This document shows positions 428 to 56,611 of a DNA stretch of 64,000 nt, in pieces. This stretch comes from Giesbergeria sp. (GTDB lineage Bacteria; Pseudomonadota; Gammaproteobacteria; Burkholderiales; Burkholderiaceae_C). Numbering within the stretch: the stretch's first letter is position 1; the number at the start of each line of letters is the position of its first letter. Made by a program: the position numbers and the translations under genes. Under the pieces are notes generated by a model. That model had not been told where the DNA came from, made no database searches, and worked only from the letters and a program-made list of their open reading frames with translations. The stretch covers positions 1 through 64,000 of the forward strand of contig JAGNYI010000012.1 of NCBI GenBank assembly GCA_017985015.1, given 5' to 3'.

Positions 428-884
428 GCCATCGTCCTGTTCTTCCGCGTCGACTGGGTGTTTTCTACGCGTTCGCGGCTGTCGTCGGCACGGGAGGGTG
501 GGCAGTCAAACGTGGCAGCACCTGAGCGTGTGAATGTCCTGGTGCAGCGACGATGCTAGACCTTGCGCCGGGGCAAGGCTGTCGGTGAAGACCGACAGTG
601 GCATTGCGCAGGCCGATTTTTTTCGTCAACGCTCCCATCAACCCGTATCTGGTGGCTAGGCCCCTCGACTGGGCTGCTTGCGCGCCAGGTTCTGCGCCAG
701 CAGGCGGCGCAGGATTTCGTCATCCGGCATATTGAGCGCGTCGCCGTAGAACTATTGTTTCAATAGCTGGCTGGGCCACTCCCATAAGCGCTAGAGGCCG
801 ATTTCCCCCATATTTGTTAAGTTGCAGACTTGTCCGATGGGTCGGCTAAATTTTGACGAGTCATTGGATGGATAGCCAGGGCCG
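428..884. other. Gene-poor decayed stretch with a possible coding remnant
   Basis: No intact gene is seen here. On the minus strand, about positions 656-751 read FYGDALNMPDDEILRRLLAQ and onward to a TAG stop at 656-658. That looks like a genuine protein C-terminus, but it is preceded by an in-frame stop at 752-754, so it would be the 3' end of a lost gene. I do not recognise the parent family with confidence. Just beside it (about 750-798) lies a copy of the interspersed palindromic repeat described separately. The rest shows nothing recognisable. Confidence 0.35.
750..798. repeat. Interspersed palindromic repeat copy
   Basis: ACTATTGTTTCAATAGCTGG is followed by CCCATAAGCGCTAGAGGCCG. The second part matches the family core exactly. 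It lies between the decayed coding remnant and ccdB. Confidence 0.7.
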
Positions 885-1199
885 TCAATAGTCGCGCAGC
901 AGCATGTCGAGGGCGGTTTCCATTTCCAGCATTTGCGCTTTGGCGCTGTTGCAGCTTTGGCGCAATTCGGACTGCAGGAAAACGGCAATGCCCAGTGGGT
1001 GTAGGTGCACCGTTTGCTCGCCCACCGCGATGGCCGGGTTGAAGCGCTCGGTCATGCCGGGAAAGGCGCCGGGCCGGGCCAGCGGGACGCAGACGCGTTC
1101 AGCAAACTGGTAGAGCAGGTCGCTCTGGATTTCCAGCACAAAGGGGAAGTCGGCCCGGTCTGGCTCTATGGGGTTGGGGTAGATGTCGAATCGCGCCAC
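885..1199 (-). CDS. ccdB: CcdB-family toxin
   Basis: The 104-residue product starts MARFDIYPNP and matches the CcdB fold family (F-plasmid CcdB is 101 residues): an N-terminal strand, an FVLEIQSDLL segment, a V-PL turn, and a C-terminal helix ending in LLRDY. CcdB toxins poison DNA gyrase by trapping the GyrA-DNA complex. The start codon is GTG at 1199-1197, only 3 bases after the TAA of the upstream antitoxin gene, so translation is probably coupled. Antitoxin-first gene order is the usual type II arrangement. The toxin appears intact. The unusual antitoxin partner is discussed in its own entry. Confidence 0.85.
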   Translation of the reverse strand: MARFDIYPNPIEPDRADFPFVLEIQSDLLYQFAERVCVPLARPGAFPGMTERFNPAIAVGEQTVHLHPLGIAVFLQSELRQSCNSAKAQMLEMETALDMLLRDY

Positions 1200-1202
1200 G
1201 GC

Positions 1203-1493
1203 TTAAACGCCTTCGCTGCGCCAGCGGCGGACGCGCTGCGAATAGGGCTCGCGCTCTGCCGCCCATGTGTTGTACTGCGCGATCTCCCCGGCGTGCTGCT
1301 GAGCCCATTGGGCGGTGGAGGCATTGCGGGTGTCGTAGCGAGCGGGTTCTTCCTGCACCGAAGTTGTCAGGGGTACGACTTTGACCGGGCGCATCACGAT
1401 GCTGCCGTCCTCCTGCGTTTGCAGGTCAAAAAGCTGCCCTGCGTACTTCTTGCCCAGCGAGATTTGGCCGCTGGCGCCGACTTCTTTGAGCAT
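1203..1493 (-). CDS. Antitoxin with AbrB-like N-terminus and CcdA-like C-terminal tail
   Basis: The ATG at 1493 was chosen because AGGGA lies 7 bases upstream; in-frame ATGs at 1517 and further upstream lack such a site. The product has 96 residues. Residues 1-45 contain GQISLGKKYAGQ followed by an acidic turn and SIVMRPVKVVP, which resembles the swapped-hairpin AbrB/MazE DNA-binding fold and not the ribbon-helix-helix of classical CcdA. Residues 72-94 (EIAQYNTW...PYSQRVRRW) resemble the toxin-binding tail of F-plasmid CcdA (EVARFIE...SFADENRDW). It lies immediately upstream of ccdB, and its upstream region runs into the 3' end of mutS. It should neutralise CcdB and autoregulate the operon; this is inferred from position and the tail. 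Confidence 0.65.
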   Translation of the reverse strand: MLKEVGASGQISLGKKYAGQLFDLQTQEDGSIVMRPVKVVPLTTSVQEEPARYDTRNASTAQWAQQHAGEIAQYNTWAAEREPYSQRVRRWRSEGV

Positions 1494-1545
1494 GACGTGA
1501 TCCCTGTTAAACGTCATGCCATCATGCAGCATGAAAATTTGCTGG

Positions 1546-4215
1546 TCAAGATTTGGGCATTGCGCCCTTGAGCTGGTACAGCGCGTCGAGCGCCTCGCGC
1601 GGACTGAGCTTGTCGGGGTCGAGGGCGGCGAGGGCGGCTTCGACGCGGCTGGGCGCCAGCATTTCGGGCGCGGGCGGTGGGGCGAACAGGTCCACTTGCA
1701 ATGCCCCTTCACCGGCCCGCGCCTCCAGGGCTTCCAGCGCGTGGCGCGCATGGTTGAGCACGGCGGCGGGCATGCCGGCCAGTTTTGCAACCTGAATGCC
1801 GTAGCTGCGGCTGGCCGGGCCGGGGGCGATTTCGTGCAGGAAGACGATGTCGCTGCCCGATTCGGCCGCGCTCACATGCATGTTGACCGCGTGGCGCGCT
1901 TTGGCGGGCAGTTCGGTCAGCTCGAAGTAGTGCGTGGCAAACAGCGTGAAGGCGCGGGTCTTGTCGTGCAGTTGGGTGGCAATGCTGCCCGCCAGCGCCA
2001 GGCCGTCGAAGGTGCTGGTGCCGCGGCCGATTTCGTCCATCAGCACCAGGCTGTGCGGCGTGGCGGCGTGCAGGATTTGCGCGGCTTCAAGCATCTCCAG
2101 CATGAAGGTCGATTGCGCGTTGGCCAAATCATCCGCCGCACCGATGCGGGTGTGGATGGCGTCGATGGGCCCCAGGCGGCAACTCGCGGCGGGCACGTGG
2201 CTGCCGATGCTGGCCAGCAGGACGATTAACGCCACCTGGCGCATGTAGGTCGATTTGCCGCCCATGTTCGGGCCGGTGATGACCTGCATGCGCGTGTTGG
2301 CGTTGAGCCGCGTGCTGTTGGCGATGAAGGCGCCGCTCGACGTTTCCGCCAGGCGCGCTTCCACCACCGGGTGGCGGCCGGCTTCGATCTCGATGCAGGG
2401 CTCGGCCACAAACTGCGGCGCGCACCAGTTCAGGGTGAGCGAGCGCTCGGCCAGGCAACACAGCACGTCGAGCGTGGCCAGCGCCTCGGCCAGGCGGGCG
2501 AGCGCCGGCACGTGGGGCTGGAGCTGCGCCAGCACCTGGTCGTAGAGCCATTTCTCACGCGCAAGCGCCCGCTCGGAAGCCGACAGCGCCTTGTCTTCAA
2601 AGGCTTTGAGTTCGGGGGTGATGAAGCGCTCGGCGTTCTTTAAAGTCTGGCGGCGGCGGTAGTCGCCTGGCACTTTGCCGAGCTGGCTGCTGGTGACTTC
2701 AATATAGAAGCCGTGCACCTTGTTGAACTGCACGCGCAGGTTGGCGATGCCGCTGCGTTCGCGCTCGCGTGTTTCCAGGTCGAGCAGGAAGGCGTCGCAG
2801 TTGGTCTGGATGGCGCGCAGCTCGTCCAGATCGGCGTCGAAGCCGGTGGCGATGACACCGCCGTCCCGCACCAGCGCGGCGGGCTCTGGGGCAATGGCGC
2901 GCGCCAGCAGCGCGGTGCAGTCGCTGGGCGGCGTCAGCGCAGAAAAAATATAGGTCAAATAGGGCTCTAGCGCATACCCTGCTTGCGCTAGCAGCTCTGT
3001 TTTTTGTAGCGTCTGGCCCAGCGCCAGCAATTCGCGCGGGCGCACCTGGCCGAGGGCCACGCGGGCGGTAATGCGCTCCACATCGCACACGCCCTTGAGC
3101 GCGGCGCGCAGGCGCGTCCAGCTGCCGTCGCCGCCGTTACTGCCGTCGTTGCGCAAGGCGCTGGTGGCCGAGAGGCGCGCGCGGGCCGGGGCGCGGTCGC
3201 GCTCGGGCTCCAGCAGCCAGCGGCGCAGCAAGCGGCTGCCCATGCCGGTCATGCAGGTGTCGAGCAGGGAGAACAGCGTAGGCGCGTCGTCGCCGCGCAG
3301 CGTTTTGACGAGTTCGAGGTTGCGCCGGGTGCTGGCGGGCAGGTCGATCAGCTCGCTGCCCCGCTGCACGCGCAGGCTGTGGATGTGCGTGAGCGGCCGG
3401 CCCTGGGTGTGCTCGGCGTAGTGCAAGAGCGCAGCGGCAGCGGCGTGGGCCTCGTGCAGCTCGTTCGCGCCAAAGGCCTGCAGCGTCGCCACTTGCAGGT
3501 GCGCGAGCAGGGTGCGCTCGCCCAGCGCGGCGTCGAACTGCCAGTCCGGGCGCGGCGCCACGGGGCAGCCAAAAACGCCTTGCTGGCGCAGGGTTTTGAG
3601 GTGGTGCTCAAAGCGCTCGGTGACGCCGGCGCTGTAGATCAGCTCGCTGGGCCCAATGCGGGCCAGCCAGGCGGGCAGTTCGTCCAGCGCGCACTCGGCC
3701 AGCAGCACGCAGCCCTGCGTCACGCTCAGCCACGCCAGGCCGCAGCGTGCGCGCTTGCCGGCGTGCACGGCAAGCAGGGTGGATTCGACTTTGTCGGACA
3801 GCAGTTCGGTGTCGGTCAGCGTGCCGGGGGTCACCACGCGCACCACCTTGCGCTCCACCGGCCCCTTGGCCGTGGCCACGTCGCCCACCTGCTCGGCAAT
3901 GGCCACCGATTCGCCCATGCGGATGAGGCGTGCCAGGTAGTTCTCCAGCGCGTGAAAGGGCACGCCCGCCATCACCACGGGCTGGCCGGCCGACTGGCCG
4001 CGCTGGGTCAGCGTGATGTCGAGCAGGCGCGCGGACTTTTCGGCGTCGGCAAAAAAGACCTCGTAGAAATCGCCCATGCGGTAGAGCAGCAGCGTGTCGG
4101 GGTACCCGGCCTTGAGGGCGAGGTACTGCTGCATCATGGGGGTGTGAACCGGAGAATCAAATTTGTCCATATAAATCGATAAATTGAGTTCAACCACCGG
4201 ATCGGATTGGGACAA
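1546..4215 (-). CDS. mutS: DNA mismatch repair protein MutS
   Basis: The 889-residue protein binds mismatched DNA and starts methyl-directed or strand-directed repair with MutL. GDFYE at residues 48-52 carries the Phe-X-Glu mismatch-reading motif. The ATPase has Walker A GPNMGGKS near residues 645-655 and Walker [17 protein letters not shown] near 726. Length is slightly above the E. coli protein (853). Part of the excess is a 20-25 residue segment around residues 402-425 ([15 protein letters not shown]) that coincides with an in-frame copy of the interspersed repeat. MSQSDP at 4215 is used as start; MDKFDSP, 15 codons in, is a possible alternative. The gene's end lies about 50 bases from the antitoxin start. 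Confidence 0.97.
2938..3008. repeat. Interspersed palindromic repeat inside mutS (in frame)
   Basis: It has the core GGCTCTAGCGC...GCGCTAGCAGCT flanked by A-rich and T-rich ends, the reverse orientation of the family consensus AGCGCTTAT-n-ATAAGCGCTAGAGGC. It keeps the mutS frame open and adds an extra loop to the protein. Confidence 0.65.
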
Positions 4216-4368
4216 ATCTGGGCATTCTCAGTGTATTTTGCCAGCCCTCCCAGACAGACTCCTGCGCTCTGGGAAGACTGCGCGCCTGTCCAAATGATGG
4301 AGCGTCCAAGCATGAGCTGGATTAGGTCGTGCGCGATGTCCTGCAGAGGCGGTTCGAAAAACCGGTGA

Positions 4369-4438
4369 TTCGCTGAACAGCGAAAGTTAATTATTTATCA
4401 AATATTCGATATAATGTTATTATTCGCTGGACAGGGAA
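4369..4438 (+). promoter_or_regulatory. Promoter and paired palindromic operators of the AbiEi-like operon
   Basis: A perfect palindrome TTCGCTGAACAGCGAA (4369-4384) and a close copy TTCGCTGGACAGGGAA (4423-4438) flank a 38-base AT-rich stretch. That stretch contains TATAAT at 4410-4415 as a likely -10 box with a weak -35 near 4386. Flanking inverted repeats fit the known negative autoregulation of AbiE-type operons by the antitoxin. The repeats are seen directly; binding by the encoded regulator is inferred. Confidence 0.65.
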
Positions 4439-4449
4439 TAACCAGTATC

Positions 4450-5529
4450 ATGACTGAATTGACCGTCGCTGAACGAGCTCTGTTGGAGCGGTTCCTGGAA
4501 GCACTCCGGGAGCTGCCGGAGGTGCGCGCCGAGATGGATGTGCGGGAGGCAACCCCGACGGTGTCCTGCAAAGTCGATGCCGAGATTCATCTTGACGTCG
4601 CCGGAAAGGCGATCGTCCTGCTGGTCGAGGTAAAAAAGACCGCGTATCCCCGGGACGTGCGCCAAGTGCTGTGGCAGTTCAAGGCGCTGCGTCAGGCATC
4701 CCCGCCCGAGGTTCAGCTTCTGCTGGTTGCCGAGTCCCTTTCTCCGGGCGCGAAGGACTTGCTCAAGTCGGAGCGCGTTGGCTACTACGACAGTGGCGGT
4801 AGCCTGTTCCTCGCGGCCTCGGGGGCCTACGTGTACATCGACAGACCGCCACCGAAGAGGCTTGAGAAATCGGTGCGGTCGCTGTTTTCCGGGCGCCGCG
4901 CGCAGGTGCTGCAGGCGCTGCTTATTCATCATCAGGACTGGTTCGGCGTTACTGAGGTGGCAGAACGGGCGCAGGTCGCGCCGTCCACCGTTTCCGATGT
5001 ACTGGGCGAACTGGAGCGGTTCGATTGGCTCGAGTCTCGCGGGCAGGGGCCGGGCAAGGAGCGCCACCTGCGCGAGCCAGGTGAGTTGCTTGACGCGTGG
5101 GCCCGGCAGCTCGGTGGATCAACCGCGCCAGTACTGCGCCGCTATTACGTGCCCGGTCTGAAATCCGATGCCTTGCTGCAGCGTCTGGGCGAAGTCCTCG
5201 CTGCGCATGAGGTCGGCTATGCGGTGAGCTACGAGGCCGCCGCGCAGCGCTTTGCACCGTTTCTGTCCGGTATTTCGCAGGTGCGCACGCGGCTGTTGCC
5301 AGGAACGGGTGCCGACGCCGCGCTGGCGGAACTCGATGCCCGCGTCGTCACCGAGGGCGCGAACCTCGCCATCATCGAGACCAAATCCACGGGAGAACTG
5401 TTGTTCCGTGAGCAGGTTGATGGCGTATGGTTGGCGAGCCCAGTGCAGGTCTACCTCGACCTGTTGCGGGGGGAAGGTCGTGCCAAAGAGATGGCTGAGC
5501 ACTTGCGGCGGGAAATGATGGGTTTCTGA
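4450..5529 (+). CDS. AbiEi-like antitoxin/transcriptional regulator (nuclease-fold plus winged helix)
   Basis: The chosen ATG at 4450 gives 359 residues; an in-frame ATG at 4414 overlaps the probable -10 box, so it was rejected. Residues about 35-80 contain DAEIHLD...LLVEVKKT, reminiscent of a restriction-endonuclease-like core (acidic residue, then E-x-K). Residues about 145-205 form a winged helix (ALLIHHQDWFGVTEVAERAQ, then APSTVSDVLGELERFDWLES). The C-terminal region ends in SPVQVYLDLLRGEGRAKEMAEHL, typical of proteins named type IV toxin-antitoxin AbiEi family. It probably represses its own operon through the flanking palindromes. Its stop overlaps the next start (TGATG), so the two genes are coupled. 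It could be a plain DNA-binding regulator rather than an antitoxin. Confidence 0.72.
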   Translation: MTELTVAERALLERFLEALRELPEVRAEMDVREATPTVSCKVDAEIHLDVAGKAIVLLVEVKKTAYPRDVRQVLWQFKALRQASPPEVQLLLVAESLSPGAKDLLKSERVGYYDSGGSLFLAASGAYVYIDRPPPKRLEKSVRSLFSGRRAQVLQALLIHHQDWFGVTEVAERAQVAPSTVSDVLGELERFDWLESRGQGPGKERHLREPGELLDAWARQLGGSTAPVLRRYYVPGLKSDALLQRLGEVLAAHEVGYAVSYEAAAQRFAPFLSGISQVRTRLLPGTGADAALAELDARVVTEGANLAIIETKSTGELLFREQVDGVWLASPVQVYLDLLRGEGRAKEMAEHLRREMMGF

Positions 5530-6425: not shown

Positions 6426-6435
6426 TGGGAAGAAC

Positions 6436-20390: not shown

Positions 20391-21206
20391 ATGAAAACCC
20401 GTTTTGTCCTGATCCACACCAGCCATGCCGGCAACGTGGGCGCCACCGCCCGCGCCATGAAAACCATGGGCTTCGGCGATCTGGTGCTGGTGGCGCCGCG
20501 CTGGCCCAACGTATTGCGACGCGAGGAAACAATCCAGCGCGCCAGCGGCGCCCTCGACGTGCTGGAGAACGCGCGCATCGTCGCCACGCTCGATGAAGCG
20601 CTCGATGGCGTGAGCCACCTCTGCGCCACCGCCATGACGCCGCGCGACTTCGGCCCGCCCACGGTGGCGCCGCGTGCGCATTTTGAATCGCTATTGAAAA
20701 GTGAGCTGCTTACGCATACAGAGCAAGCGATAGAGGCAAAAAATACTTCAAGTTTTGCGCCGGATGTGAGCGCGCCGGCTGCGTCCAGCGCCGAGGCAGG
20801 CATTGCCTTCCTGTTTGGCTCCGAACGCTTCGGCATGGCCAACGAAGACGTGTACCGCTGTCACGTGGCGCTCTCGATCCCCACCAACCCGCAGTTCAGC
20901 TCGCTCAACCTCGGCGCGGCGGTGCAGCTCATCGCCTACGAATGGCGCCAGGCGCTGGGGGGTTTTCCAGTGCATAGCAGCACGCCGCCGGCGCAGCAGG
21001 CCGACGCGCAGCAGGTGGCCGGCATGCTGGCGCACTGGGAGCAGGCGCTCGCTGCCATCGGTTTCCTGGATCCGGACGCACCCAAAAAGCTGATGCCGCG
21101 CCTGAACCAGATGTTCAACCGCGCGCAGCCGACGCAGGAGGAAATCCACATCCTGCGCGGTGTCGCCAAGGCCATGCTGCAGACCGCCGCCCAGGCAAAG
21201 CATTAA
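20391..21206 (+). CDS. trmJ: tRNA (cytidine/uridine-2'-O-)-methyltransferase TrmJ
   Basis: The 271-residue SPOUT-class methyltransferase begins [23 protein letters not shown], the family N-terminus, with the AdoMet-binding knot in [15 protein letters not shown] and [19 protein letters not shown]. TrmJ 2'-O-methylates position 32 of several tRNAs. The segment at residues about 98-120 ([20 protein letters not shown]) is an insertion relative to the family and is encoded by a copy of the interspersed palindromic repeat in frame. The stop codon touches the left end of a separate inverted-repeat element. Function should be retained, since the insertion precedes the knot. Confidence 0.88.
20684..20752. 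repeat. Interspersed palindromic repeat inside trmJ (in frame)
   Basis: CGCTATTGAAAAGTGAGCTG is followed by TTACGCATACAGAGCAAGCGATAGAGGC and an A-rich end. This is a diverged copy of the family, read through by trmJ as about 22 residues. Confidence 0.65.
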
Positions 21207-22188: not shown

Positions 22189-22250
22189 AGCTATTGAACT
22201 AATAGCTACTAGCGCTTATTGCATAAGCGGTAGAGCTATTTTTCTTTAGA
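22189..22250. repeat. Interspersed palindromic repeat after cysE
   Basis: AGCTATTGAACTAATAGCTA is followed by CTAGCGCTTATTGCATAAGCGGTAGAGC and a T-rich end. It is one of the best-preserved copies, with the AGCGCTTAT/ATAAGCG palindrome nearly intact. The remaining bases to the next gene (22251-22408) show nothing recognisable. Confidence 0.75.
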
Positions 22251-22408
22251 GATTCCAAAGGAGAAGCGTGCCTAACAGCCCGTCAGCCCTTCGCTGCGCT
22301 TGGGCGCGGCGTTGGTGAAGGCGCGTGCCCCCCAGGCATCCTCAGGCATCCTCAGGCCGCCATAGCGTGTTTCAGTGATGGCGCTATTCGGGCCATCTCT
22401 TCGCTACT

Positions 22409-27573: not shown

Positions 27574-27650
27574 AAAATAGCAGTAAAAAATGCCTCTAGC
27601 GCACAACCAGAAAGCGTTTGTAGCTACTATTGTTATAGTGATCTACACGC
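27574..27650. repeat. Interspersed palindromic repeat upstream of the dehydrogenase
   Basis: AAAAATGCCTCTAGCGCAC is followed by AGCGTTTGTAGCTACTATTG. This is a diverged copy in reverse orientation, sitting in the 140-base gap between the dehydrogenase and aldolase genes, where a promoter might be expected. Confidence 0.6.
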
Positions 27651-29009: not shown

Positions 29010-29035
29010 GGCGATTACTTTCTTTTTGGGATGGG

Positions 29036-29222
29036 GTCTGCCAAAAGACGCTCTGGCGTCGTTGCAGTGCCTTGTCGTAGCGATGCTACTGCCTGCGGCG
29101 CTGCGCCTAGCCAGAACACTAAGGGTTTGCCAAAAAGCGCTCTGGCGTCGTTGCAACGCCTTGCCGTAGCTGCGCTACTGTCTGCGGCGCTGCGCCTAGC
29201 CAGAACGCTTTTTGGCAAACCC
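29036..29222. repeat. Two tandem ~85-100 bp hairpin repeats upstream of yqeY
   Basis: The second copy (29123-29222) has 17-base perfect terminal inverted repeats, GGGTTTGCCAAAAAGCG and its complement. Its interior reads CTCTGGCGTCGTTGCAACGC to TGCGGCGCTGCGCCTAGCCAGAAC. The first copy (29036-29119) has the same interior but degraded ends. A third fragment of the right end recurs at about 29272-29295. They are non-coding and MITE- or REP-like. Confidence 0.75.
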
Positions 29223-29297
29223 TGAAACAGGGAAAACTCGATCTGGTGTGGTTTTGATGGACCAACCCCGAGCGCCTTTTGGCAAACCCTGAAACGG

Positions 29298-29330
29298 AAA
29301 AACCCGCGCTGGGCGTCCCTGGCGCGGGTT
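29298..29330 (-). terminator. Intrinsic terminator of rpsU
   Basis: On the minus strand AACCCGCGC and GCGCGGGTT form a strong stem with a 12-base loop, followed by a run of T. It lies 34 bases after the rpsU stop. Confidence 0.8.
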
Positions 29331-31240: not shown

Positions 31241-32476
31241 TCAGCGCCCGGGCAGCGCCTGCGCGCAGGCCGCCGCGCTGGCCCAGGCCCACTGAAAGTT
31301 GTAGCCGCCCAGCCAACCGGTGACGTCCACCACCTCGCCAATGAAGTAGAGCCCCGGCTGCGCCTTGCACTCCATGGTTTGCTGCGACAGCGCGCGCGTG
31401 TCGACGCCGCCGAGCGTGACCTCGGCTTTTTTGTAGCCCTCGCTGCCGGTAGGAACCAACTCCCACCGCGCGAGCTGCTGCGCCAGCCGCACGAGCGCTT
31501 TGTCGGGTACTTCGGCCATGGGGCGCTGCCAGTCGCTGCTTTGCGCCACCCAGGCATCGGCGAGCCGGCTGGGCACCCATTGGGCCAGTTCGTTGGCCAA
31601 GAGTTTGCGCGAGCGCAGCTTGGCCTCGGCCAGCGCTGCCGGCAGGTCCACGCCCGGCGCCAGGTGGATGGACAGGGGCGCACCTGGGTTCCAGTAGCTG
31701 GAGATCTGCAACACCGCCGGACCCGAGAGGCCGCGGTGGGTGAACAGCAGGTCTTCCTGGAAAGCCATGCGGTCCTTCTTGGCCCCCGTGCTGATCTCTA
31801 CCGGCAAAGCCAGCCCAGAGAGCTGCGCATACGGCGCCCAGGCAGCGCCATCGAAAGTCAGCGGCACCAGGCCCGGCCGGCGCTCGATGAGCGGCACGCC
31901 GAACTGCTGCGCCAGGCGGTAGCCGAAATCGGTGGCGCCGATCTTGGGGATGGACAGACCGCCCGTGGCCACCACCAGGCTGCGCGCATTCACGGGGCCG
32001 CGATCGGTATTGATTTGATAGCCGCCAGCGCTAGTCCCATATGCGCTAGAGGCCGAAAAGGCTATATTTTTGACGCTGCAGGGCTGCCAGTGCGTCACGC
32101 CGCCCGCAGCACATTCGGCCAGCAGCATGGCGATGATGTCTTCGGCCGAGTGGTCGGCAAAGAGCTGGCCCTTGTGCTTCTCGTGCCAGGCAATGCCGTG
32201 GTGCTCCAGCAGGGCGATGAAGTCCTGCGGCGCGAACCGCGACAGCGCCGAGCGGCAGAACTGCGGGTTCTGGCCGACGAAGTGCTTGTGCGGCGCGCGC
32301 GGATCGAGATCGCGATTGGTGAAGTTGCAGCGCCCGCCGCCCGAGATGCGGATTTTTTCGGCCACCTTGTCGGCGTGGTCGATCAGCAGCACGCGCAGCC
32401 CGCGCTGGCCAGCCTGGCCGGCGCAGAACAGGCCGGCGGCGCCGGCACCGATCACGACGGCGTCAAATATTTCCAT
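31241..32476 (-). CDS. HI0933/BaiN-type NAD(P)/FAD-dependent oxidoreductase
   Basis: The 411-residue flavoprotein has an N-terminal dinucleotide-binding motif [19 protein letters not shown], then [18 protein letters not shown], the signature of the HI0933/YhiN family, and [19 protein letters not shown]. The C-terminal FAD part has [20 protein letters not shown]. The reaction is unknown; BaiN relatives reduce bile-acid-type enones. Residues about 131-154 ([20 protein letters not shown]) are encoded by an in-frame interspersed repeat and are probably a surface loop. Confidence 0.88.
32013..32082. repeat. Interspersed palindromic repeat inside the flavoprotein gene (in frame)
   Basis: TTGATAGCCGCCAGCGCTAG is followed by CCATATGCGCTAGAGGCCGAAAA and a TATATTTTT end. 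It is read through by the minus-strand gene without a stop or frame change. Confidence 0.7.
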
Positions 32477-32491
32477 GAAAAGAGGGTGCCA

Positions 32492-32546
32492 GCGTTTGTT
32501 CTGTAAGCGCTAGATGCTACGAAAAAGAAAGCTTAAAGACTGGCGC
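32492..32546. repeat. Partial interspersed repeat between cobA and the flavoprotein gene
   Basis: TGTAAGCGCTAGATGCTACGAAAAAGAAAG keeps one arm of the family palindrome and the A-rich end; the other arm is missing. Confidence 0.5.
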
Positions 32547-32550: not shown

Positions 32551-33390
32551 TCAGCCCTGCGCCGCGAAGGGCGAGTGTAGTGCCGGGGCCTGTTGCCCCG
32601 CGGCCGCAGCGACGCCCTGCAGCACGTCGCCCACGACGATGATGCACGGGCTGGCCAGGCCTTCGCTGCGGGCGGTGGCGTGCAGGCTCGCCAGCGTGCA
32701 CCTGGCCACGCGCTGCTCCGGCAGGCTGACGCGCTCGACGATGGCGGCCGGCGTGTGGGCGGGCAGGCCGGCAAGCAGGCCTTGCTCGATGTTGGCCAGG
32801 CGGCTGACGCCCATGTAGATCACCAGCGTCAGGCGTGCGGCATGGGCGGTGCCGGCAATCAGGGCCCAGTCGGTTTCGCGCCCCGGGTGGGCATGGCCGG
32901 TGATGAAAAGCACCCCGTGGGCCTGCTCGCGGTGCGTCAGCGCCGTCCCCAGCGCCGCGCTGCAGGCGATGCCTGCGGTCACGCCGTTCACCACCTCCAC
33001 CGCGATGCCGGCGGCGCGCAGGTGCGCTACCTCCTCGCCACCGCGGCCGAACACCATGGGGTCGCCGCCCTTGAGGCGCACCACGTTCTCGCCTTCCAGC
33101 ACGGCCATCTGCATCAGGCGTTCGATGAACCCTTGGGGCGTGCTCTTGCAGCCGCCGCGTTTGCCCACGTGCACCACGCGGGCCATGGGGCGGGCGAGCG
33201 CCAGCACGCCAGGGCTGACCAGGTCGTCCACCAGCAGCACGCTGGCGGCCTGGATGGCGCGCACCGCCTTGAGCGTGAGCAGCTCGGGGTCGCCCGGCCC
33301 TGCGCCCACCAGGGTGCAGCGGCCGCGCAGCAGGGGGACGTCGGCTGCGGAGTGGGCGGGGGAGGTCAGGGCTGATGGGGGTGGTTTCAC
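32551..33390 (-). CDS. cobA: Uroporphyrinogen-III C-methyltransferase (siroheme branch)
   Basis: The 279-residue SUMT adds two methyl groups to uroporphyrinogen III, giving precorrin-2, the precursor of siroheme. Family motifs are VGAGPGDPELLTLKAVRAIQ, VRLKGGDPMVFGRGGEEVAHL and VNGVTAGIACSAALGTALTHR. It lacks the dehydrogenase/ferrochelatase half of CysG. Its start overlaps the ybiB stop (ATGA). Location downstream of nirBD/nasA fits supply of siroheme to nitrite reductase. Confidence 0.95.
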   Translation of the reverse strand: MKPPPSALTSPAHSAADVPLLRGRCTLVGAGPGDPELLTLKAVRAIQAASVLLVDDLVSPGVLALARPMARVVHVGKRGGCKSTPQGFIERLMQMAVLEGENVVRLKGGDPMVFGRGGEEVAHLRAAGIAVEVVNGVTAGIACSAALGTALTHREQAHGVLFITGHAHPGRETDWALIAGTAHAARLTLVIYMGVSRLANIEQGLLAGLPAHTPAAIVERVSLPEQRVARCTLASLHATARSEGLASPCIIVVGDVLQGVAAAAGQQAPALHSPFAAQG

Positions 33391-34322
33391 GGTGCTGGCC
33401 TTGCAGATTCAATCTGCAGGGCCAGACGCAAGATGTGTTCCACCTGCCGTGCGATGGGGGCCGGCACGGGCAGGTGGCCGTCCAGCATGGCGCGTATGAG
33501 GGCGGCGGTGCCCTCGGCGTCGGCGCCGGTCGGCAGCTCGGGCAGGGTGGTGAGCGGGCCACCCTGGGCGTCTTCCAGGCGGGTGACCGCACCCGCCACA
33601 AAACCATCCATCTGCGGCACGCGCCGCGCGTCGGCCACCGGCTCGCCCTCGGTGCCGCGCAGCAACAGCGCATCGGCGCCGGTCAGCGCAAAGGTGGCGG
33701 CCATGGACTGCGCGTATTCCGGGTGCGTGTAGCTGCCCACCACCAGGGCGCGCGCGCCCACAGGCGCCAGCGGGTTCATCAGCTTGACCAGGCTGTGCGC
33801 GCTGTTGCGCAACCCCAGCGTGCGCCGCACGGCCAGCAGGCGCGCCAGGCCCGGCAGCAGCAGGGCGGTGGGCACGAACGCGACGCTCCCAGGTGCTATG
33901 GTTTGAATAGCTTGAAGCACCGGTACATCAAGCGCTGCAAGCACATTTTGGCTAAAAATTCGGCTGTCTTCGGTGGCGGTGCCGTGCACCAGCACCGGCA
34001 AGCCCTCCCGCGCCAGCAGCAGCGCCAGCAAGGGCGTGAGCACCGGCAGCTTGCGCGCGCCGTTGTAGCTGGGCAGCACCACCAGCGTGCGCGTGCTGGC
34101 GGGCAGGGGCGCCAGGCGGGCGTGGACGGCGTCGAGAAAGCCGGCCATTTCCTCGGGCGTTTCGCCTTTGACGCGCATGGCGATGCAAAACGCCCCCACC
34201 TCCAGATCGCTGATGCTGCCATCGAGCACCTGGCCGAACAGGTCGCAGGCGTGCTCCCGCGACAGGTGGCGGGCGCCCTGGGCGCCGCGGGCGATGATTT
34301 TGAGGTAGTGGCTGATGGGCAT
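33387..34322 (-). CDS. ybiB: YbiB-type phosphoribosyltransferase-fold protein
   Basis: The 311-residue protein resembles anthranilate phosphoribosyltransferase in fold (MPISHYLKIIARGAQGARHL, SREHACDLFGQVLDGSISDL, LGLRNSAHSLVKLMNPLAP), but YbiB members bind nucleic acid rather than catalyse tryptophan synthesis. YbiB is often found next to nitrate assimilation genes in betaproteobacteria, as here between nasA and cobA. Residues about 121-143 (FSQNVLAALDVPVLQAIQTI) coincide with a diverged interspersed repeat read in frame. Confidence 0.85.
   Translation of the reverse strand: MPISHYLKIIARGAQGARHLSREHACDLFGQVLDGSISDLEVGAFCIAMRVKGETPEEMAGFLDAVHARLAPLPASTRTLVVLPSYNGARKLPVLTPLLALLLAREGLPVLVHGTATEDSRIFSQNVLAALDVPVLQAIQTIAPGSVAFVPTALLLPGLARLLAVRRTLGLRNSAHSLVKLMNPLAPVGARALVVGSYTHPEYAQSMAATFALTGADALLLRGTEGEPVADARRVPQMDGFVAGAVTRLEDAQGGPLTTLPELPTGADAEGTAALIRAMLDGHLPVPAPIARQVEHILRLALQIESARPAP
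33890..33959. repeat. Diverged interspersed repeat inside ybiB (in frame)
   Basis: GTGCTATGGTTTGAATAGCTTG, then CATCAAGCGCTGCAAGCAC and TTTTGGCTAAAAATT match the outline of the family (AATAGCT, AAGCGCT, A/T-rich end) with several substitutions. It is less certain than the other copies. Confidence 0.45.
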
Positions 34323-37220: not shown

Positions 37221-37245
37221 GGCGTGGGTTTGGGGTGTTTTTTGG

Positions 37246-37302
37246 TTCTATCGCTTATCTATAAAGCGCCGGTAGCTATTGTTTTGGTAGCTTCGATTTC
37301 CC
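37246..37302. repeat. Interspersed palindromic repeat upstream of nasA
   Basis: TCTATCGCTTATCTATAAAGCGCCGGTAGCTATTGTTTTGGTAGC keeps the CGCTTAT/ATAAAGCG palindrome and the TAGCTATTG end of the family. Confidence 0.65.
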
Positions 37303-37367
37303 GCTGTCTGTTCGGGCTGAGCTTGTCGAAGCCGGGGCGTGCTTGTTTGAAAGGCGTGCCTTTGTTG

Positions 37368-38053
37368 AGGGTGGAGGCCGGGAGTCGCCCGGCATGCGAG
37401 TAACTTTCTTTCGCTTCGCCGAAAGAAAGTCACCAAAGAAAGGGCGACCCTACTGCGCGCGTCCCTTCGCTGCGCTACGGGCAACCTGCGATGCTCGGTC
37501 AGGGTGTGCGCCGCAGAACTCACTGCGCGCTGCGCGCTCCGTTCAAACAACTGCGGCAAGTCAGTGCACGAAGTGCGTGTGTCCTGCGGCACACGCACGC
37601 ACACCCTGCCCTGCGCTTCTCGGCACGCGCAGAAGGGACCCCGCAGCCGGACATCCATTCGGGCCATTGCTGCGCTCGGCCGCGCCTGCGCGGCGCGAGG
37701 CGCTTGCGCACGGAAGATCGGGCCGAGCGAAGCAAAGGCCCGTGTGGCTGTTCGGCTGTTTGGATGTTCGGCTGTCCACCCCCTGCTGGCTGCGCCTGCG
37801 GCGGGGCAGTTGCGGGGTGAGCATGGGCGCCCGCGCGCCCATGCCTCGTCATCTGACTCGCCGTGGCTGTCCGAGCGGCGCGCGCCAGCGCAAAGCGAGT
37901 TCCACGGCGCACCCCGCAACCGCTCCGACGCAGGTTTGCCCCGTAGCGAAGCGATGGGGTCGCAGACTGGGGGTCGCCCTTTCTTTGGTGACTTTCTTTC
38001 GGCGAAGCGAAAGAAAGTTACTCGCATGCCGGGCGACTCCCGGCCTCCGCCCT
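37368..38053. mobile_element. ~686 bp non-coding element with 78 bp perfect inverted ends
   Basis: Positions 37373-37450 and 37971-38048 are perfect reverse complements over 78 bases; with one mismatch the match extends outward to about 37368/38053. Inside the ends the complementarity continues imperfectly for another 80-90 bases (CGCTACGGGCAACCTGCG against its partner). Each end contains a nested hairpin, CTTTCTTTCGC...GCGAAAGAAAG. The core is GC-rich with long spurious frames on both strands, and no transposase motif is seen. It lies between nirD and nasA and would form a very large hairpin in the transcript. It resembles a MITE or a decayed composite of two inverted copies. Confidence 0.7.
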
Positions 38054-38090
38054 GAAACGAAGCACATCTCGCCAACAAGACAACCAGCAT

Positions 38091-38474: not shown

Positions 38475-38546
38475 TGCTATTCCTTTAGTAGCTGGTTGCG
38501 CTTATGGGATAAGCGCTAGAGGCTGTTTTTGCTTGAAGTTTCGTGA
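38472..38546. repeat. Interspersed palindromic repeat between nirB and nirD
   Basis: TAGTAGCTGGTTGCGCTTATGGGATAAGCGCTAGAGGCTG is followed by TTTTTGCTTGAAGTTTC. This is the clearest copy of the family, with a perfect GCGCTTATGGGATAAGCGC stem. It overlaps the nirD ribosome-binding region on the minus strand. Confidence 0.8.
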
Positions 38547-47197: not shown

Positions 47198-48123
47198 GTG
47201 CGTGTCTCCTCAAAAGTGAAGGCCGATGCGATGCGCACCAGGGCGAATTCCAGTGCGTAGCCGACCACGCCGATGATGAAGATGGCGATCAGGATGTGGG
47301 CCACGTTCAGGTTGTTCCACTCGTCCCACACCCAAAAGCCAATGCCGACGCCGCCGGTCAGCATCTCGGCCGCCACGATCACCAGCCAGGCGGTGCTGAC
47401 CGCCAGCCGCACGCCGGTCAGCATGTAGGGCAGCACGGCGGGGAACAGGATGCGCGTGGCGATCTTCCATTCCGACAGGTTCAGCACGCGCGCCACGTTC
47501 ATGTAGTCCTGCGGCACGCGCTGCACGCCGGTGGCGGTGTTGATGACCATGGGCCAGATCGAGCAGATGAAGATCGTCCAGATGGCCGCCGGGTTGGCGC
47601 CCTTGAACACCAGCAGGCCAATTGGCAGCCAGGCCAGGGGCGAGACCGGCCGCAGCAGGCTGATGAGCGGCCCGAACATGCGCGAGAGGAAGGTGAAGCG
47701 CCCGATGGCAAAGCCCGCCGGAATCCCCACCGCCGCCGCCAGCCCAAAGCCCACGGCCACGCGTTCGAGCGAGGCCAGCACGTTCCAGCCCACGCCCTGG
47801 TCGTTGGGGCCGTTGCGGTAGAACGGGTCGGCAAACAGCTCGCGCGCCTGCTGCCAGGTAGCGGCCGGGCCGGGAATGCTGGCGCCCGTGCCGGCCGAGA
47901 CCAGCGCCCACACGCCCAGCAGCAGCGCAAAGCCGCACAGCGGCGGCAGCACCGCCAGCCAGAAGGCGCGTGTCGGCAGCGGGCCACGCGGGGTATTTTC
48001 AAGGTCTTTTGGGCCTCTAGCGCTTGTGCTGATTGCGCTAACAGCTATATTTTTAATAGCCCCGGAGTGCGCAGGCACGCCTGCGGTGGCTTCGGGCGGG
48101 GAATGGAAAACGGCGGCAACCAT
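47194..48123 (-). CDS. nrtB: Nitrate ABC transporter permease
   Basis: The 309-residue inner-membrane protein has about six hydrophobic segments and the BPD permease loop AAEMLTGGVGIGFWVWDEWNNL. LLRPVSPLAWLPIGLLVFKGANP matches NrtB. TAGGAG precedes the start at 48123. Residues about 20-40 (AIKNIAVSAISTSARGPKDL) are encoded by an in-frame interspersed repeat, lengthening the cytoplasmic N-terminus before the first membrane segment. Confidence 0.93.
   Translation of the reverse strand: MVAAVFHSPPEATAGVPAHSGAIKNIAVSAISTSARGPKDLENTPRGPLPTRAFWLAVLPPLCGFALLLGVWALVSAGTGASIPGPAATWQQARELFADPFYRNGPNDQGVGWNVLASLERVAVGFGLAAAVGIPAGFAIGRFTFLSRMFGPLISLLRPVSPLAWLPIGLLVFKGANPAAIWTIFICSIWPMVINTATGVQRVPQDYMNVARVLNLSEWKIATRILFPAVLPYMLTGVRLAVSTAWLVIVAAEMLTGGVGIGFWVWDEWNNLNVAHILIAIFIIGVVGYALEFALVRIASAFTFEETRT
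48000..48062. repeat. Interspersed palindromic repeat inside nrtB (in frame)
   Basis: GGGCCTCTAGCGCTTGTGCTGATTGCGCTAACAGCTATATTTTTAATAGC is the reverse orientation of the family. It keeps the nrtB frame open. Confidence 0.75.
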
Positions 48124-51131: not shown

Positions 51132-51143
51132 GGCGGTGAGCGA

Positions 51144-52550: not shown

Positions 52551-52774
52551 TAGCGCACGCGCGCCGAATCGCTACAGCGCCCCTCCCGGGCGCTGTTTGC
52601 TTTGTAGGGACGCGAACGTTGAACATCAGCCCAATGCTTGAGGCGGGCGCTAAAAAAACCAGCAACCACCGCGCAAGGGCCGCCCCGCCGCGCTGGTGGT
52701 GTCCCCCTTCCGCAGCGCGCAGCGATGCAAGAGAAGGGGGAAGGCGCGAAGCGCCTCAGGGGGGAGTACCGAAT

Positions 52775-54193
52775 TCAACACTCGATGACATTCACCGCCA
52801 GCCCGCCGCGCGAGGTTTCCTTGTAGCGGCTCTTCATGTCGGCGCCGGTCTGCACCATGGTGCGGATCACCTGGTCGAGCGACACCTCGTGCCGGCCATC
52901 GCCGCGCAGCGCCAGCCGCGCGGCGTTGATGGCCTTGATGGCGCCCATGGCGTTGCGCTCGATGCACGGAATCTGCACCAGGCCGCCCACGGGGTCGCAG
53001 GTCATGCCCAGGTTGTGTTCCATGCCGATTTCGGCAGCGTTTTCCACCTGCGCCGGGCTGCCGCCCAGCACCGCAGCGAGCGCGCCCGCCGCCATGCTGC
53101 AGGCCACGCCCACTTCGCCCTGGCAGCCCACTTCGGCGCCTGAGAGCGAGGCGTTCTTTTTGTACAGGATGCCGATGGCGCCTGCAGTGAGCAGGAAATC
53201 GAGCACGCCCTGCTCGTTCGCGTCGGGCACAAAGTTGCGGTAGTAGTGCAGCACCGCCGGAATCACCCCGGCCGCCCCGTTGGTGGGCGCGGTGACCACG
53301 CGGCCGCCGGCGGCGTTTTCTTCGTTCACCGCCATGGCGTAGAGGTTGACCCAATCGAGCATGGCCAGCGGGTCGCGCAGCGCGGCCTCGGGGTGGCTGC
53401 ACAGGCTTTTGTGCAGCTCGGCCGCACGGCGGCGCAGTTGCATGCGCCCGGGCAGGTGGCCGCTGGCTGCGCAGCCGCGCGTGACCGAGCCCTCCATGAC
53501 GGCCCAGATGGCGAGCAAGCGGCTGCGCACCGCCTCAGGGCTTTGCCGCTGCGCCTCGTTGGCCGCCATGAGCTGCGCTACCGAGAGGCCGCTGGCGCTG
53601 CACTGCGCCAGCAGGTCGGCGCCGCTGGCAAAGGGGTACAGCGCGGGCGCCGTGCTGGGCGCGGCGGTGTCGGCGCTGGCGTTGACCACGCGCTGGCCCG
53701 CCGCGTCGACGACAAAGCCGCCGCCAATCGAATAGAAGTCGCTGGCCAGTAGCTCTTCGCCCGCCGGGCCCAGCGCGGCAAAGCGCATGCCATTGGGGTG
53801 TAGCGGCAGGCTTTTGCGGCGCATCAGCAAATGCTCCTTTTCGACGAAGCGCACCGGGTGCTGGCCCAGCAGCGAGAGGCTTTGTGAACTGCGAATGGCT
53901 TCGATGGCAGGGGCGATGGCCTCGGGGTCGACGCGGTCGGGCTCGTGGCCGGCCAGGCCCAGCAGCACCGCGCGGTCGGTGCCGTGGCCGATGCCGGTGG
54001 CCGAGAGCGAGCCAAACAGCTCGACGCGCACGCCGTGCACGGGTGCCAGCCCCAAGGCCGATTGCAGTTGGCAGACAAACTGGCGCGCGGCAATCATGGG
54101 CCCGACGGTGTGCGAGCTGGACGGCCCGATGCCAATCTTGAACAGATCAAAGACGCTGACAAAGCTGTCTGCGGGCGCGCAATCGTGGGTCAT
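52775..54193 (-). CDS. sdaA: L-serine ammonia-lyase
   Basis: The 472-residue iron-sulfur L-serine dehydratase converts serine to pyruvate and ammonia. Motifs are [21 protein letters not shown] at the N-terminus, then [35 protein letters not shown] and [20 protein letters not shown]. Conserved cysteines in these C-terminal blocks hold the [4Fe-4S] cluster. ATG at 54193 gives the normal start. Confidence 0.96.
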
Positions 54194-54335
54194 GAAGCGA
54201 ACGGGCCAGAAGCTGGCCTGTGAAAAAGTGGCAGTGCGCGCACAGTACGCACGGCGCCGTCGCCGGGCATGCGCGCTTACCCTGAGGCACTGCGCTGGGC
54301 GCGCCCCAACGGCCGATGCGGGCAAAAAGGAATGC

Positions 54336-54403
54336 TATATAAAAACTAGCTGCTAACGCATATGGGATAAGCGCTAGAGGCCAGTTACATTCAAAATTGT
54401 TGC
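54336..54403. repeat. Interspersed palindromic repeat between sdaA and hpnC
   Basis: TATAAAAACTAGCTGCTAACGC is followed by ATGGGATAAGCGCTAGAGGCC and an AAAATTGTT end. It is a well-preserved copy. Confidence 0.75.
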
Positions 54404-54439
54404 GGCAAACAGCGTCTGCTTGTTGCCCATGAAACTTGC

Positions 54440-55327
54440 TTACATCGCCATGGCGCGTACCAGCAGCAGGGGCGCGTCCCAGGCGCGGATGCGTGGGCGC
54501 TGGGTGAGGCAAGCGCCTTGCAGCGCGTCGATTTTGTCGAGCACGCGCAGGCCGCCCTGGACGACGAGGCGCAGCTCCCAGCCCGCGCGGCCGGGCAGGC
54601 GGTGCACCAGCGGCGCGCCGCCTTCCATGCAGTGCCGCGCCCAACGGGCCAGGTCGGCCACCAGGCGGTCGCTGGCGGGGGTGCGCGGCTGCGCCAGCAG
54701 GTCTTGCGCCCGCAGCGCCTGCGCGGCGGCGTCGGCTTGCGGCACGTACCAGCGCCGGCGCGGCAGGTCCACGCTGAGGTCTTGCCAGAAGTTGATCAGT
54801 TGCAGCGCCGTGCAGATGGCGTCGCTCTGCGCCAGCGCCGGGGCGTCGTTCACACCGTACAGGTGCAGCAGCAGCCGCCCCACGGGGTTGGCCGAGCGGC
54901 GGCAGTAGTCCAGCAAAGCTGCACGGTCGGCGTAGGGCTGCGCGGACTGCGTTCGCTCCACGTCCTGGCGGAAGGCGCTGAGCAGGTCGGTCAGCAGGGG
55001 CAGGGGCAGGGCGTGGCGTTCGATCATCGCCGCGAGCGGCCCAAACACCTCGCGCCAACGCGTGCCTGGCGCCGCGCCACTGGCAACGGCCAGCAGCTCG
55101 GTTTCGAAGTCGTTCAGGTCCGCCAGGCGCTGGCTTGGCGCGGCATCGCCTTCGTCGGCGATGTCGTCGGCGGTCCGGGCAAACGCGTAAATCGCCGCAA
55201 TGGGAGCGCGCAGCGCCGGCGGGCACAGCCAGGAGGCGACAGGGAAGTTCTCGTAGTGCGTCACCGGCAGCGGCGCTGCGGGCTTGGGCGGAACGGGGGC
55301 GGGGTTTGGGCTGGGGTCGGACGGCAC
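54440..55327 (-). CDS. hpnC: Squalene/phytoene synthase-family protein HpnC
   Basis: The 295-residue prenyl-joining-family protein has HYENFPVASWLCPPALRAPI, the hallmark HpnC N-terminus, followed by the first Asp-rich motif DDIADEG and the second in INFWQDLSVDL. With HpnD and HpnE, HpnC makes squalene from farnesyl diphosphate in hopanoid producers. No other hpn gene is in the window. Confidence 0.9.
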   Translation of the reverse strand: MPSDPSPNPAPVPPKPAAPLPVTHYENFPVASWLCPPALRAPIAAIYAFARTADDIADEGDAAPSQRLADLNDFETELLAVASGAAPGTRWREVFGPLAAMIERHALPLPLLTDLLSAFRQDVERTQSAQPYADRAALLDYCRRSANPVGRLLLHLYGVNDAPALAQSDAICTALQLINFWQDLSVDLPRRRWYVPQADAAAQALRAQDLLAQPRTPASDRLVADLARWARHCMEGGAPLVHRLPGRAGWELRLVVQGGLRVLDKIDALQGACLTQRPRIRAWDAPLLLVRAMAM

Positions 55328-55357
55328 CCGGCGATTGTCGCCTGCAGTTTTTGCGCA

Positions 55358-55400
55358 AAGGTATTGATAACTAACCAGTCAGTCAGTAATAATGCGCACC
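55358..55400 (+). promoter_or_regulatory. Probable promoter/operator of the RND efflux operon
   Basis: ATTGATAACTAACCAGTCAG is followed by TCAGTAATAAT, a short direct-repeat CAGT array with a TAATAAT -10-like box about 35 bases before the ATG. Such ACTNACTGGT-like sequences are often TetR/AcrR operators of efflux pumps. No TetR gene is nearby. Confidence 0.4.
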
Positions 55401-55423
55401 TCAAACAACACGCATTCCCATCC

Positions 55424-56611
55424 ATGTCGCATCCGCACGCCACCAACCGTGGGCGCTTTTCGGCGCTTTTGCTCTTCTCGTCGGTGCTGGCGCTGGGTGC
55501 CTGCTCGCGCAGCGAGCCACCGCCCGAGCCGATTCGTGCCGTCAAGCTGTTGACCGTAGGGGTCAGCCCGCTGACTGCACAGGTGGAATATGCCGGCGAG
55601 GTGCGGGCGCGCACCGAGTCGCGCCTGGGGTTTCGCGTGCCCGGCAAGATCCTGCAGCGCCAGGCCGAGCTGGGCCAACGGGTGCGCGCCGGGCAGCTGC
55701 TGGCGCAGCTCGACCCGCGCGATTTCGAGCTCGCCGCCACGGCGGCGCGCGCACTGGTGAGCGCGGCACAGACGCAGCGCGATCTGGCCGCGGCCGACGC
55801 CAGGCGCTACGGGGCGCTCAAGGCGCAGAACTTCATCAGCGGCGCCGAGCTTGAGCGCCGCGAGGCGTCGCTCAAGGCCGCGCAGGCCTCGCTGCAGCAG
55901 GCACAGGCCCAGGCCGCGTCACAAGGCAACCAGGCGGCGTACACCCGGCTGGTGGCCGACGCCGATGGCGTGGTTACCGGCATCGATGCTGAGCCCGGCC
56001 AGGTGGTGGCCGCTGGCGCCAGCGTGGTGCGCCTGGCGCGCGACGGCGCCCGCGACGTGGTGTTTTCCGTGCCCGAGGACAAGGTGGGGCGCCTGGCGGT
56101 CGGCCAGGCACTGGCCGTGCACAGCTGGTCGGGCGGCGCGCCGCTGGTCGCCACGGTGCGCGAGGTGGCGGCCAGTGCCGACCCGGCCACGCGCACTTTT
56201 GCCGTCAAGGCGGCCATTGAAGGCGATGCAGCGCCGCAGCTCGGTGCCACCGTCAATGTGGTTGCGCCTGCGCTCTCGGCACAAGGGGCGCAGGCCATTT
56301 TGCTGCCCACCACCGCGCTCATGCAAAGCGGCGGCGGCACGGCGGTGTGGGTGTTCGATGCCTCCACCAGCACGGTGCGCGCGCAGCCGGTGCAGGTGGC
56401 CACAGCCGATGGCAACCAGGCGGTGATCGCCAGCGGCCTGGCGCCGGGCATGCAGGTGGTGGCCACGGGTGTGCATGTGCTCTCGCCCGGACAGAAAGTG
56501 ACGATTTATCAGGAAAAATATGCTCCAGCGCAAGGACAGCAAGCGAAAGCAGCTACTGAAGTGATAGCAAATCAACCCCTGCCCGCAGCTTCGGCTGCCG
56601 CTGCGCAATGA
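55424..56611 (+). CDS. RND efflux periplasmic adaptor (membrane fusion protein)
   Basis: The 395-residue lipoprotein has signal FSALLLFSSVLALGAC with lipobox LGAC. Features of RND adaptors are VEYAGEVRARTESRLGFRV and VPGKILQRQAELGQRVRAGQ (lipoyl-like domain), an alpha-hairpin (residues about 95-160) and the beta-barrel DARDVVF-like part. Residues about 364-383 (EKYAPAQGQQAKAATEVIAN) come from an in-frame interspersed repeat in the flexible C-terminal tail. Its stop overlaps the start of the pump gene (ATGA). Confidence 0.92.
   Translation: MSHPHATNRGRFSALLLFSSVLALGACSRSEPPPEPIRAVKLLTVGVSPLTAQVEYAGEVRARTESRLGFRVPGKILQRQAELGQRVRAGQLLAQLDPRDFELAATAARALVSAAQTQRDLAAADARRYGALKAQNFISGAELERREASLKAAQASLQQAQAQAASQGNQAAYTRLVADADGVVTGIDAEPGQVVAAGASVVRLARDGARDVVFSVPEDKVGRLAVGQALAVHSWSGGAPLVATVREVAASADPATRTFAVKAAIEGDAAPQLGATVNVVAPALSAQGAQAILLPTTALMQSGGGTAVWVFDASTSTVRAQPVQVATADGNQAVIASGLAPGMQVVATGVHVLSPGQKVTIYQEKYAPAQGQQAKAATEVIANQPLPAASAAAAQ
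56514..56574. repeat. Interspersed palindromic repeat inside the RND adaptor gene (in frame)
   Basis: AAATATGCTCCAGCGCAAGG is followed by ACAGCAAGCGAAAGCAGCTACTG and AGTGATAGCAAATC. It is a diverged copy that keeps the A-rich, AGCGC and AGCTACT blocks of the family. Confidence 0.5.

Follow-up and report, generated by a model that had tools for sequence, protein, structure and literature searches.

Does a palindromic repeat that lies both between and within genes record the insertion of a mobile coding element, or the shaping of native sequence to a signal in the DNA itself? The question is raised by a 64,000-nucleotide stretch of Giesbergeria sp. (contig JAGNYI010000012.1 of assembly GCA_017985015.1, positions 1 to 64,000; the whole stretch is referred to here as the window), for which a sequence-only reading had described about 13 copies of such a repeat, six of them in genes, and interpreted them as an insertion. 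We find a genome-wide motif of ~67 bp that very probably is a maintained signal at the level of double-stranded DNA rather than an inserted coding element. It is symmetric and dense, persists between close relatives, is absent from some congeners and gives no indication of young copies. As a whole, the sequence-only reading is partly supported.

A 67-bp motif with dyad symmetry

A covariance model built from 36 copies, 30 from other contigs and six from the window, matches all 13 reported window sites, nine with E <= 2.1e-7 and a weaker four (at 37221, 56498 and 32462 on the minus strand and at 33892 on the plus strand) with E between 4e-4 and 0.02; as six of the 13 sites were already in the model, seven are independent finds. 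The same 13 non-overlapping copies were recovered with a profile hidden Markov model (HMM) trained by iteration on 464 kb of the source genome. These 464 kb, a non-random choice, combine the window with portions of C101, C23 and C84, three other contigs. The copies are confirmed as real. With E < 0.01, the profile HMM identifies 70 non-overlapping copies in these 464 kb and 0 in the reversed sequence, a density of ~1 motif per 6.6 kb and an extrapolated total of ~500 copies in the 3.37-Mb genome. In a model-independent check, the 13-bp core AAGCGCTAGAGGC (at most one mismatch) was found 263 times in the genome, compared with 3 times for the reversed pattern. The motif is over-represented on both strands and in coding and non-coding DNA alike, a feature expected of DNA uptake sequences (DUS) and uptake signal sequences (USS).

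The consensus of 54 strong copies, TGCTATTAAATTGATAGCTGCTAGCGCTTATGGAATAAGCGCTAGAGGCCAATTTTACTTAAAATTT, is AT-rich, with AGC (columns 16-18) and GCG (columns 39-41) as invariant columns. Its dyad symmetry is apparent in the base-frequency matrix, where column j and the complement of column 66-j correlate at 0.52, compared with at most 0.12 in 12 other registers tested. By inspection, A/T tracts at columns 53-55 and 62-66 are approximately one helical turn apart; columns 53-55 are TTT or AAA as a unit, and the interchange of the two points to readout of A-tract shape instead of the bases. The symmetry is in line with a regularly spaced site for chromosome architecture or topology, at which a nucleoid-associated protein or a topoisomerase (e.g. 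gyrase) would recognize the dyad together with the flanking A/T tracts, an explanation that we regard as rather unlikely.

Individual copies resemble near-independent draws. Their mean (0.604) and maximum (0.79) pairwise identity both equal those of column-shuffled copies, which gives no indication of recent copies or of closely related subfamilies. A palindrome that is mostly intergenic, near 3' ends and patchy across genera could also be the legacy of an ancient element like the repetitive extragenic palindromes (REP) or miniature inverted-repeat transposable elements (MITE), spread by a now-lost transposase and today fossil or co-opted; the summed mutual information between columns (147.9 vs 137.0 in shuffles, sd 1.3) and the slightly wider spread of pairwise identity (sd 0.062 vs 0.053 in shuffled copies) speak in its favor, as does the length of the trmJ linker discussed below. 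However, the maximum identity is that of shuffled copies, all but one of the 12 strongest pairs involve columns no more than two positions apart, and we consider this origin improbable.

The motif within protein-coding genes

Five of the six window genes reported to contain the repeat indeed carry it: mutS (copy at 2945..3011, minus strand; open reading frame (ORF) 1546-4215, minus), trmJ (20689..20755, plus; ORF 20391-21206, plus), the gene for an HI0933-type flavoprotein (32005..32071, plus; gene 31241-32476, minus) and, with weak copies, ybiB (33894..33961, plus; gene 33387-34322, minus) and the RND adaptor gene, toward its 3' end (56503..56569, minus; gene 54518-56611, plus). The sixth, 'nrtB' (ORF 37248-38090, 280 aa), has no Pfam match and is an unsupported gene; its weak copy (37226..37292, minus) lies between the molybdopterin oxidoreductase and Rieske genes, at the end of this ORF. 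The DNA under the same ORF (37234-38078) contains a ~700-bp dispersed repeat that matches several other contigs of the source genome as well as relatives, on both strands. As described earlier for this repeat without a named family, the frames used are open in all five genes. The in-gene copies are read in several frames and in both orientations, and no single conserved peptide is encoded.

The view that the repeat invades genes as a protein-coding insertion is not supported, given these several frames and orientations and the unchanged lengths of mutS, ybiB and trpF (the latter outside the window). In all three the segment is conserved in orthologs without the repeat (for trpF, in G002), the outcome that the sequence-only reading had itself named as refuting it. 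The segment in mutS is native: among the alignment rows listed it is homologous and of equal length in motif-free Pseudacidovorax L099 and Variovorax L100 and L103, some other listed rows being longer or shorter, and a motif-like stretch occurs at this site in four of 80 loci (L086, L097, L101, L102) at E <= 1.1e-3. The ybiB interval, in which there is no indel, has the same length in 10 of 11 orthologs, the one additional base of G010 being aligned to the flank. Here the motif is clear only in the source genome (23.8 bits), G007 (19.6 bits) and G012 (31.4 bits), and faint in G001 (11.9 bits) and G010 (7.2 bits); between G012 and G004 the segment diverges by 0.46, vs 0.20 for the rest of the gene. 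For trpF, motif-free G002 has a similar protein of equal length. Equal length combined with change in place at these three genes demonstrates change without insertion at some sites, with trmJ as the exception, and both point mutation and short-tract conversion are compatible with it.

Approximately 20 extra residues, which had been claimed for every gene, fit trmJ only. The HI0933-type gene exceeds its counterparts in G002 and G005, both motif-free, by four residues (12 nt), with alignable sequence within the motif; the interval in OTC is equal in motif-free G002, G005 and G008; and the RND adaptor has the same length as in motif-bearing G012, the sole comparison. Third-position GC in the segments of the source genome is 0.51 (OTC), 0.40 (HI0933) and 0.26 (ybiB), compared with 0.87, 0.85 and 0.89 for the rest of these genes, and values as low are reached elsewhere in the gene by 0 of 259 sub-gene intervals in OTC and 0 of 341 in the HI0933-type gene. 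The ybiB segment has a third-position GC of 0.73 in other orthologs, and the OTC segment in motif-free genomes has 0.65 vs 0.68 for the rest.

These alignments also bear on an ancient mobile element. Besides the unchanged lengths, no clean pair of insertion and empty site and no target duplication was found among the sites aligned (38 of 70 sites comparable with G012). A link to REP-associated tyrosine transposases (RAYT), for which a check had been suggested, is not borne out, as RAYT presence does not track the motif: PF01797 is present in the motif-free or near-free G002, G005 and G008 and absent from the motif-bearing G003, G011, G019 and G020. Of 60 genomes searched, 46 have Y1_Tnp matches, irrespective of the motif. 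The RAYT-like Y1_Tnp gene of the source genome (L063:6938-7690, contig C55) is unflanked, the nearest motif copy in the 14-kb stretch being ~4.3 kb away.

Placement, persistence and loss

With genes called by a codon-usage script trained on the source genome, which missed trmJ and makes in-gene counts approximate, 140 of the 179 copies in seven stretches of five genomes (the source genome, G004, G007, G012 and G013) are intergenic and 39 lie in called genes. Among gaps of at least 50 bp, 40 of 99 convergent ones are occupied, compared with 51 of 220 (--) and 32 of 177 (++) co-directional and 10 of 133 divergent ones, and there is no preference in orientation in the seven stretches (40 copies with, 43 against the genes). 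In the set from the source genome, the distance is at most 15 bp for 40 of the 65 measured to 3' gene ends and for 14 of the 45 measured to 5' ends.

Proximity to 3' ends could reflect a transcription terminator or another element at the RNA level, acting as a bidirectional hairpin at gene ends, and both strands are foldable (mean z -2.0 and -2.3 vs mononucleotide shuffles, 55 copies). Such a role is very improbable, however, as none of the eight copies between 20.5 and 39.5 kb coincides with any of 21 terminator-like sites (a GC-rich hairpin followed by a T run), and copies are located within housekeeping genes in both orientations. No covariation above shuffles was detected, on a biased sample in which most copies had been selected for a fixed core or 3' arm. 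At the Rfam gathering score the motif has no match and the window yields tRNA only.

Spacing was assessed by the coefficient of variation (CV) of the gaps, relative to a null in which the types of gap and the numbers in genes are preserved. The CV falls below the null in six of seven stretches: in C101 (0.44 vs 0.90, p 0.0003) and C23 (p 0.042) of the source genome, and in stretches of G012 (p 0.018), G007 (p 0.016), G004 (p 0.017) and G013 (p 0.049), which were picked around the ortholog of a C101 gene and are therefore not independent of C101. Mean spacing in the stretches is 5.7-7.6 kb, and the three contigs of the source genome combined are more evenly spaced than chance (p 8e-4). For the 150 best sites of the complete genome G004, gaps <2 kb are depleted (p 0.012) and there is no replichore polarity. 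An architecture or topology site is favored by this sparse and fairly even spacing, by the dyad symmetry, by the occupancy of convergent over divergent gaps and by the lack of polarity; binding would take place mostly at 3' gene ends, where supercoils meet. On the other side, the evenness fails in the window, congeners exist without the motif, and there is no known reader protein, for which no genome-by-genome search was made.

Between close relatives the motif persists. G012 retains it with at least 15 bits in 35 of the 38 sites of the source genome for which both flanks were matched, the other 32 of 70 being not comparable, and G007 in 17 of 18 comparable sites; the intergenic DNA around the sites often aligns poorly between congeners. 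In 30 pairs of copies from the source genome and G012, chosen for retained motif, identity is 0.92, 0.78 and 0.62 at high-, mid- and low-information columns, respectively. This grading of conservation by column information argues against a fossil element of the REP or MITE type.

Other congeners are without it. The number of comparable sites with the motif is 0 of 4 in G002, 0 of 2 in G005 and 0 of 1 in G008, and 0 copies were found in 240 kb of G002 and 0 in 60 kb of G005. A whole-genome search, in which at most 81 candidates per genome were scored, gave 0 for G002 and G005, 1 for G008 and at least 69 for 23 of 26 genus members including the source genome. At least one match is present in 6 of 10 genomes from other genera of the family and in 0 of 24 from other families. 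In a table count, 19 of 200 family genomes, from 15 genera, combine a minimum of 30 core matches with a ratio of 2.5 or more to the reversed control, and core counts can vary within a genus (118 vs 12 in g40, 108 vs 6 in g64). The family is taken to be Comamonadaceae on the basis of mutS neighbors and plasmid matches. An excess of the consensus in related genomes, as implied by the sequence-only reading, is thus present within the genus of the source organism and, scattered, in other genera.

The stretches compared also differ in GC content, which is 0.58-0.59 in the motif-free ones of G002 and G005 (L226-L240) and 0.63-0.68 in the motif-bearing ones. No other dialect is seen in G002 or G005, in that the top k-mers include no motif-like 11-mer; the word CTCTAGCG is enriched in G005 (14 vs 3.3 expected), and by eye none of its 14 contexts in G005 or 16 in G002 contains the rest of the motif. 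Loss of competence was considered as the cause of motif loss and rejected, as the ComEC and DprA families do not separate motif-bearing from motif-free genomes; the presence of these families neither supports nor excludes the loss of a specific receptor.

The remaining window copies lie outside genes. Those at 750..816 (plus; 53.6 bits with the covariance model, 42.5 bits with nhmmer), 27574..27640 (minus), 47995..48061 (minus) and, between divergent genes, 54333..54399 (plus) are intergenic, and the second and fourth of these are retained in G012, as is the copy in the RND adaptor gene. The intergenic copy at 22189..22255 (plus) is preceded by a stop codon at 3 bp; the site has no motif in G012 and G015 and a 14.3-bit remnant in G004. 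The intergenic copy at 38475..38541 (plus) scores at least 15 bits in four of six congeners (G003, G004, G007 and G012), 13.5 bits in G006 and is not found in G013. A weak copy at 32467..32533 (minus) is located between genes, with a 10-bp overlap with the start of the HI0933-type gene. Separately, the interval 29034-29302 of the window contains a tandem pair of 87-nt repeats, 87% alike, which overlaps with a pair of 41-nt repeats.

Carriage by mobile DNA was considered and rejected. Exact 16-mer matches in viral contigs number 0, and phage records give 18-base matches only (E 6). Plasmid matches occur in 10 records, six of them named for Comamonadaceae or its genera, and those below E 1e-4 are from Diaphorobacter and Acidovorax only. 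Accessory DNA contains 0 motifs in 16 kb vs 2.3 expected, a small sample. In the class 1 integron of plasmid pP11b (L276:2497-2557), a 42.9-bit copy lies within an ORF annotated as DUF1010, in a cassette between dfrA12 and aadA2, which hints at a Comamonadaceae origin of this cassette.

A candidate mark of self-DNA and its known counterparts

We tentatively suggest, with more doubt than confidence, that the motif marks self-DNA for uptake; both the protein reader and the uptake function are what we infer. In favor of this reading are the change in place, the absence of the motif from whole lineages and what is known of competence in the family. Natural competence is described for both Acidovorax and Verminephrobacter; the Acidovorax strains tested gave no transformants with DNA from a different species of the genus, and uptake in Verminephrobacter was inferred to be selective, with no uptake sequence named in the accessible part of that study (PMC4212676). 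A receptor of the type IV pilus or competence machinery would bind the core and A/T tracts, giving fragments with good sites an advantage in uptake and recombination. DNA under loose constraint, as at 3' gene ends, in linkers and at tolerant codons, would in this way be drawn toward the motif, as proposed for DUS/USS, and lineages that lose uptake specificity would lose the motif. Selection or biased recombination would maintain the motif in fixed positions, and it would arise at least partly in place by substitution. More broadly, it is close to an even call whether we are dealing with an undescribed class of signal, namely a dyad of 67 bp that is recognized in double-stranded form, recurs every ~6-7 kb with the copies spaced relative to one another, overwrites coding sequence through substitution and is turned on in some lineages and off in others, for self-DNA recognition and/or chromosome organization in Comamonadaceae.

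Several observations weigh against a signal that arises in place and serves uptake. Intermediate sites are few (8 at 8-15 bits vs 70 copies). The trmJ interval of the source genome exceeds that of eight out of eight outgroup orthologs by 25-29 residues, that of G005 by 22 and those of G002 and G008 by 7, and varies from -11 to +2 residues relative to the source genome among 11 motif-bearing congeners; as this linker is longer than in other families, an old insertion is possible there. OTC is 3-4 residues longer than in other families, and in view of the trmJ and OTC lengths insertion may have contributed at some sites. The ybiB segment evolves faster also without the motif (G004-G014 0.28 vs 0.15, G004-G003 0.45 vs 0.21), the HI0933 segment is AT-shifted in motif-free G002 and G005 too (0.53 vs 0.72), and synonymous codon identity is not clearly raised (OTC 0.72 vs 0.73 for the rest, HI0933 0.70 vs 0.67). 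Copies in the window are not evenly spaced (CV 1.01, p 0.77), nor is there overall evenness among the 150 best sites of G004 (CV 1.07 vs 0.99 for a uniform null). In 14 more distant motif-bearing congeners, at least 15 bits are reached in 24 of 41 comparisons, mostly of a few in-gene sites including ybiB. The ComEC and DprA families are present in motif-free G002 and G005. Finally, at 67 bp the motif is longer than known uptake signals, the core of DUS/USS being 9-11 bp (PMC4212676), and its dyad symmetry sets it apart from DNA uptake enhancing sequences (DUES), which are said not to be palindromes (PMC1939737).

The motif is a concrete candidate for an uptake sequence in a family in which sequence-specific transformation is suspected, for Verminephrobacter and Acidovorax. 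Whatever its reader, a long DNA signal overwrites protein-coding sequence in place. Comparison with orthologs also corrects a tempting misreading, in that apparent in-frame 'repeat insertions' can turn out to be native segments adapted to such a signal.

Among known systems, REP and bacterial interspersed mosaic elements (BIME) with their RAYT are palindromic and located at 3' gene ends, and the motif is likewise. Unlike them, it has no link to RAYT and no young copies, and its places are common to close relatives. MITE are characterized by similar young copies and by empty sites with target duplication, features that the motif does not have in the sites aligned. Rickettsia palindromic elements (RPE) are insertions of ~150 bp (PMC10969869). 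They resemble the motif in having in-frame copies in unrelated genes, but the motif uses several frames and leaves the lengths of mutS, ybiB and trpF unchanged.

Closer to the proposed function, longer USS of ~30 bp exist next to those with short cores. DUS and USS share with the motif a genome-wide occurrence on both strands, a proposed evolution in place by point mutation and tolerance of coding sequence (PMC1939737), and DUS are known to exist in dialects (PMC3630211). Even spacing of uptake sequences has been interpreted in terms of replication, repair or compaction; the accessible part of PMC1939737 makes the case that uptake sequences are not palindromic and are too unevenly spaced for compaction.

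Our literature searches on the motif core and inner arm returned nothing on the motif itself, but fragments of it are known from PMC5217627 (2017). Table 7 of that paper lists as 'potential novel motifs', their function left open there, GCTTAT(N)5AAGCG in Acidovorax ebreus TPSY (114 copies, 107 intergenic, 44 convergent, 4 divergent) and ATAGCT(N)22CAAAAG in Polaromonas naphthalenivorans CJ2 (125 copies, 18 in genes). By inspection, the former fits motif columns 26-31 and 37-41 in register, and the latter columns 14-19 and 42-47, with CAAAAG for CTAGAG; the bias toward intergenic positions and convergent genes is alike (PMC5217627). Whereas the accessible part of that paper describes spaced short words in two species, our analysis adds the 67-bp dyad, its overlay on genes, its conservation and spacing, and its absence from entire lineages.

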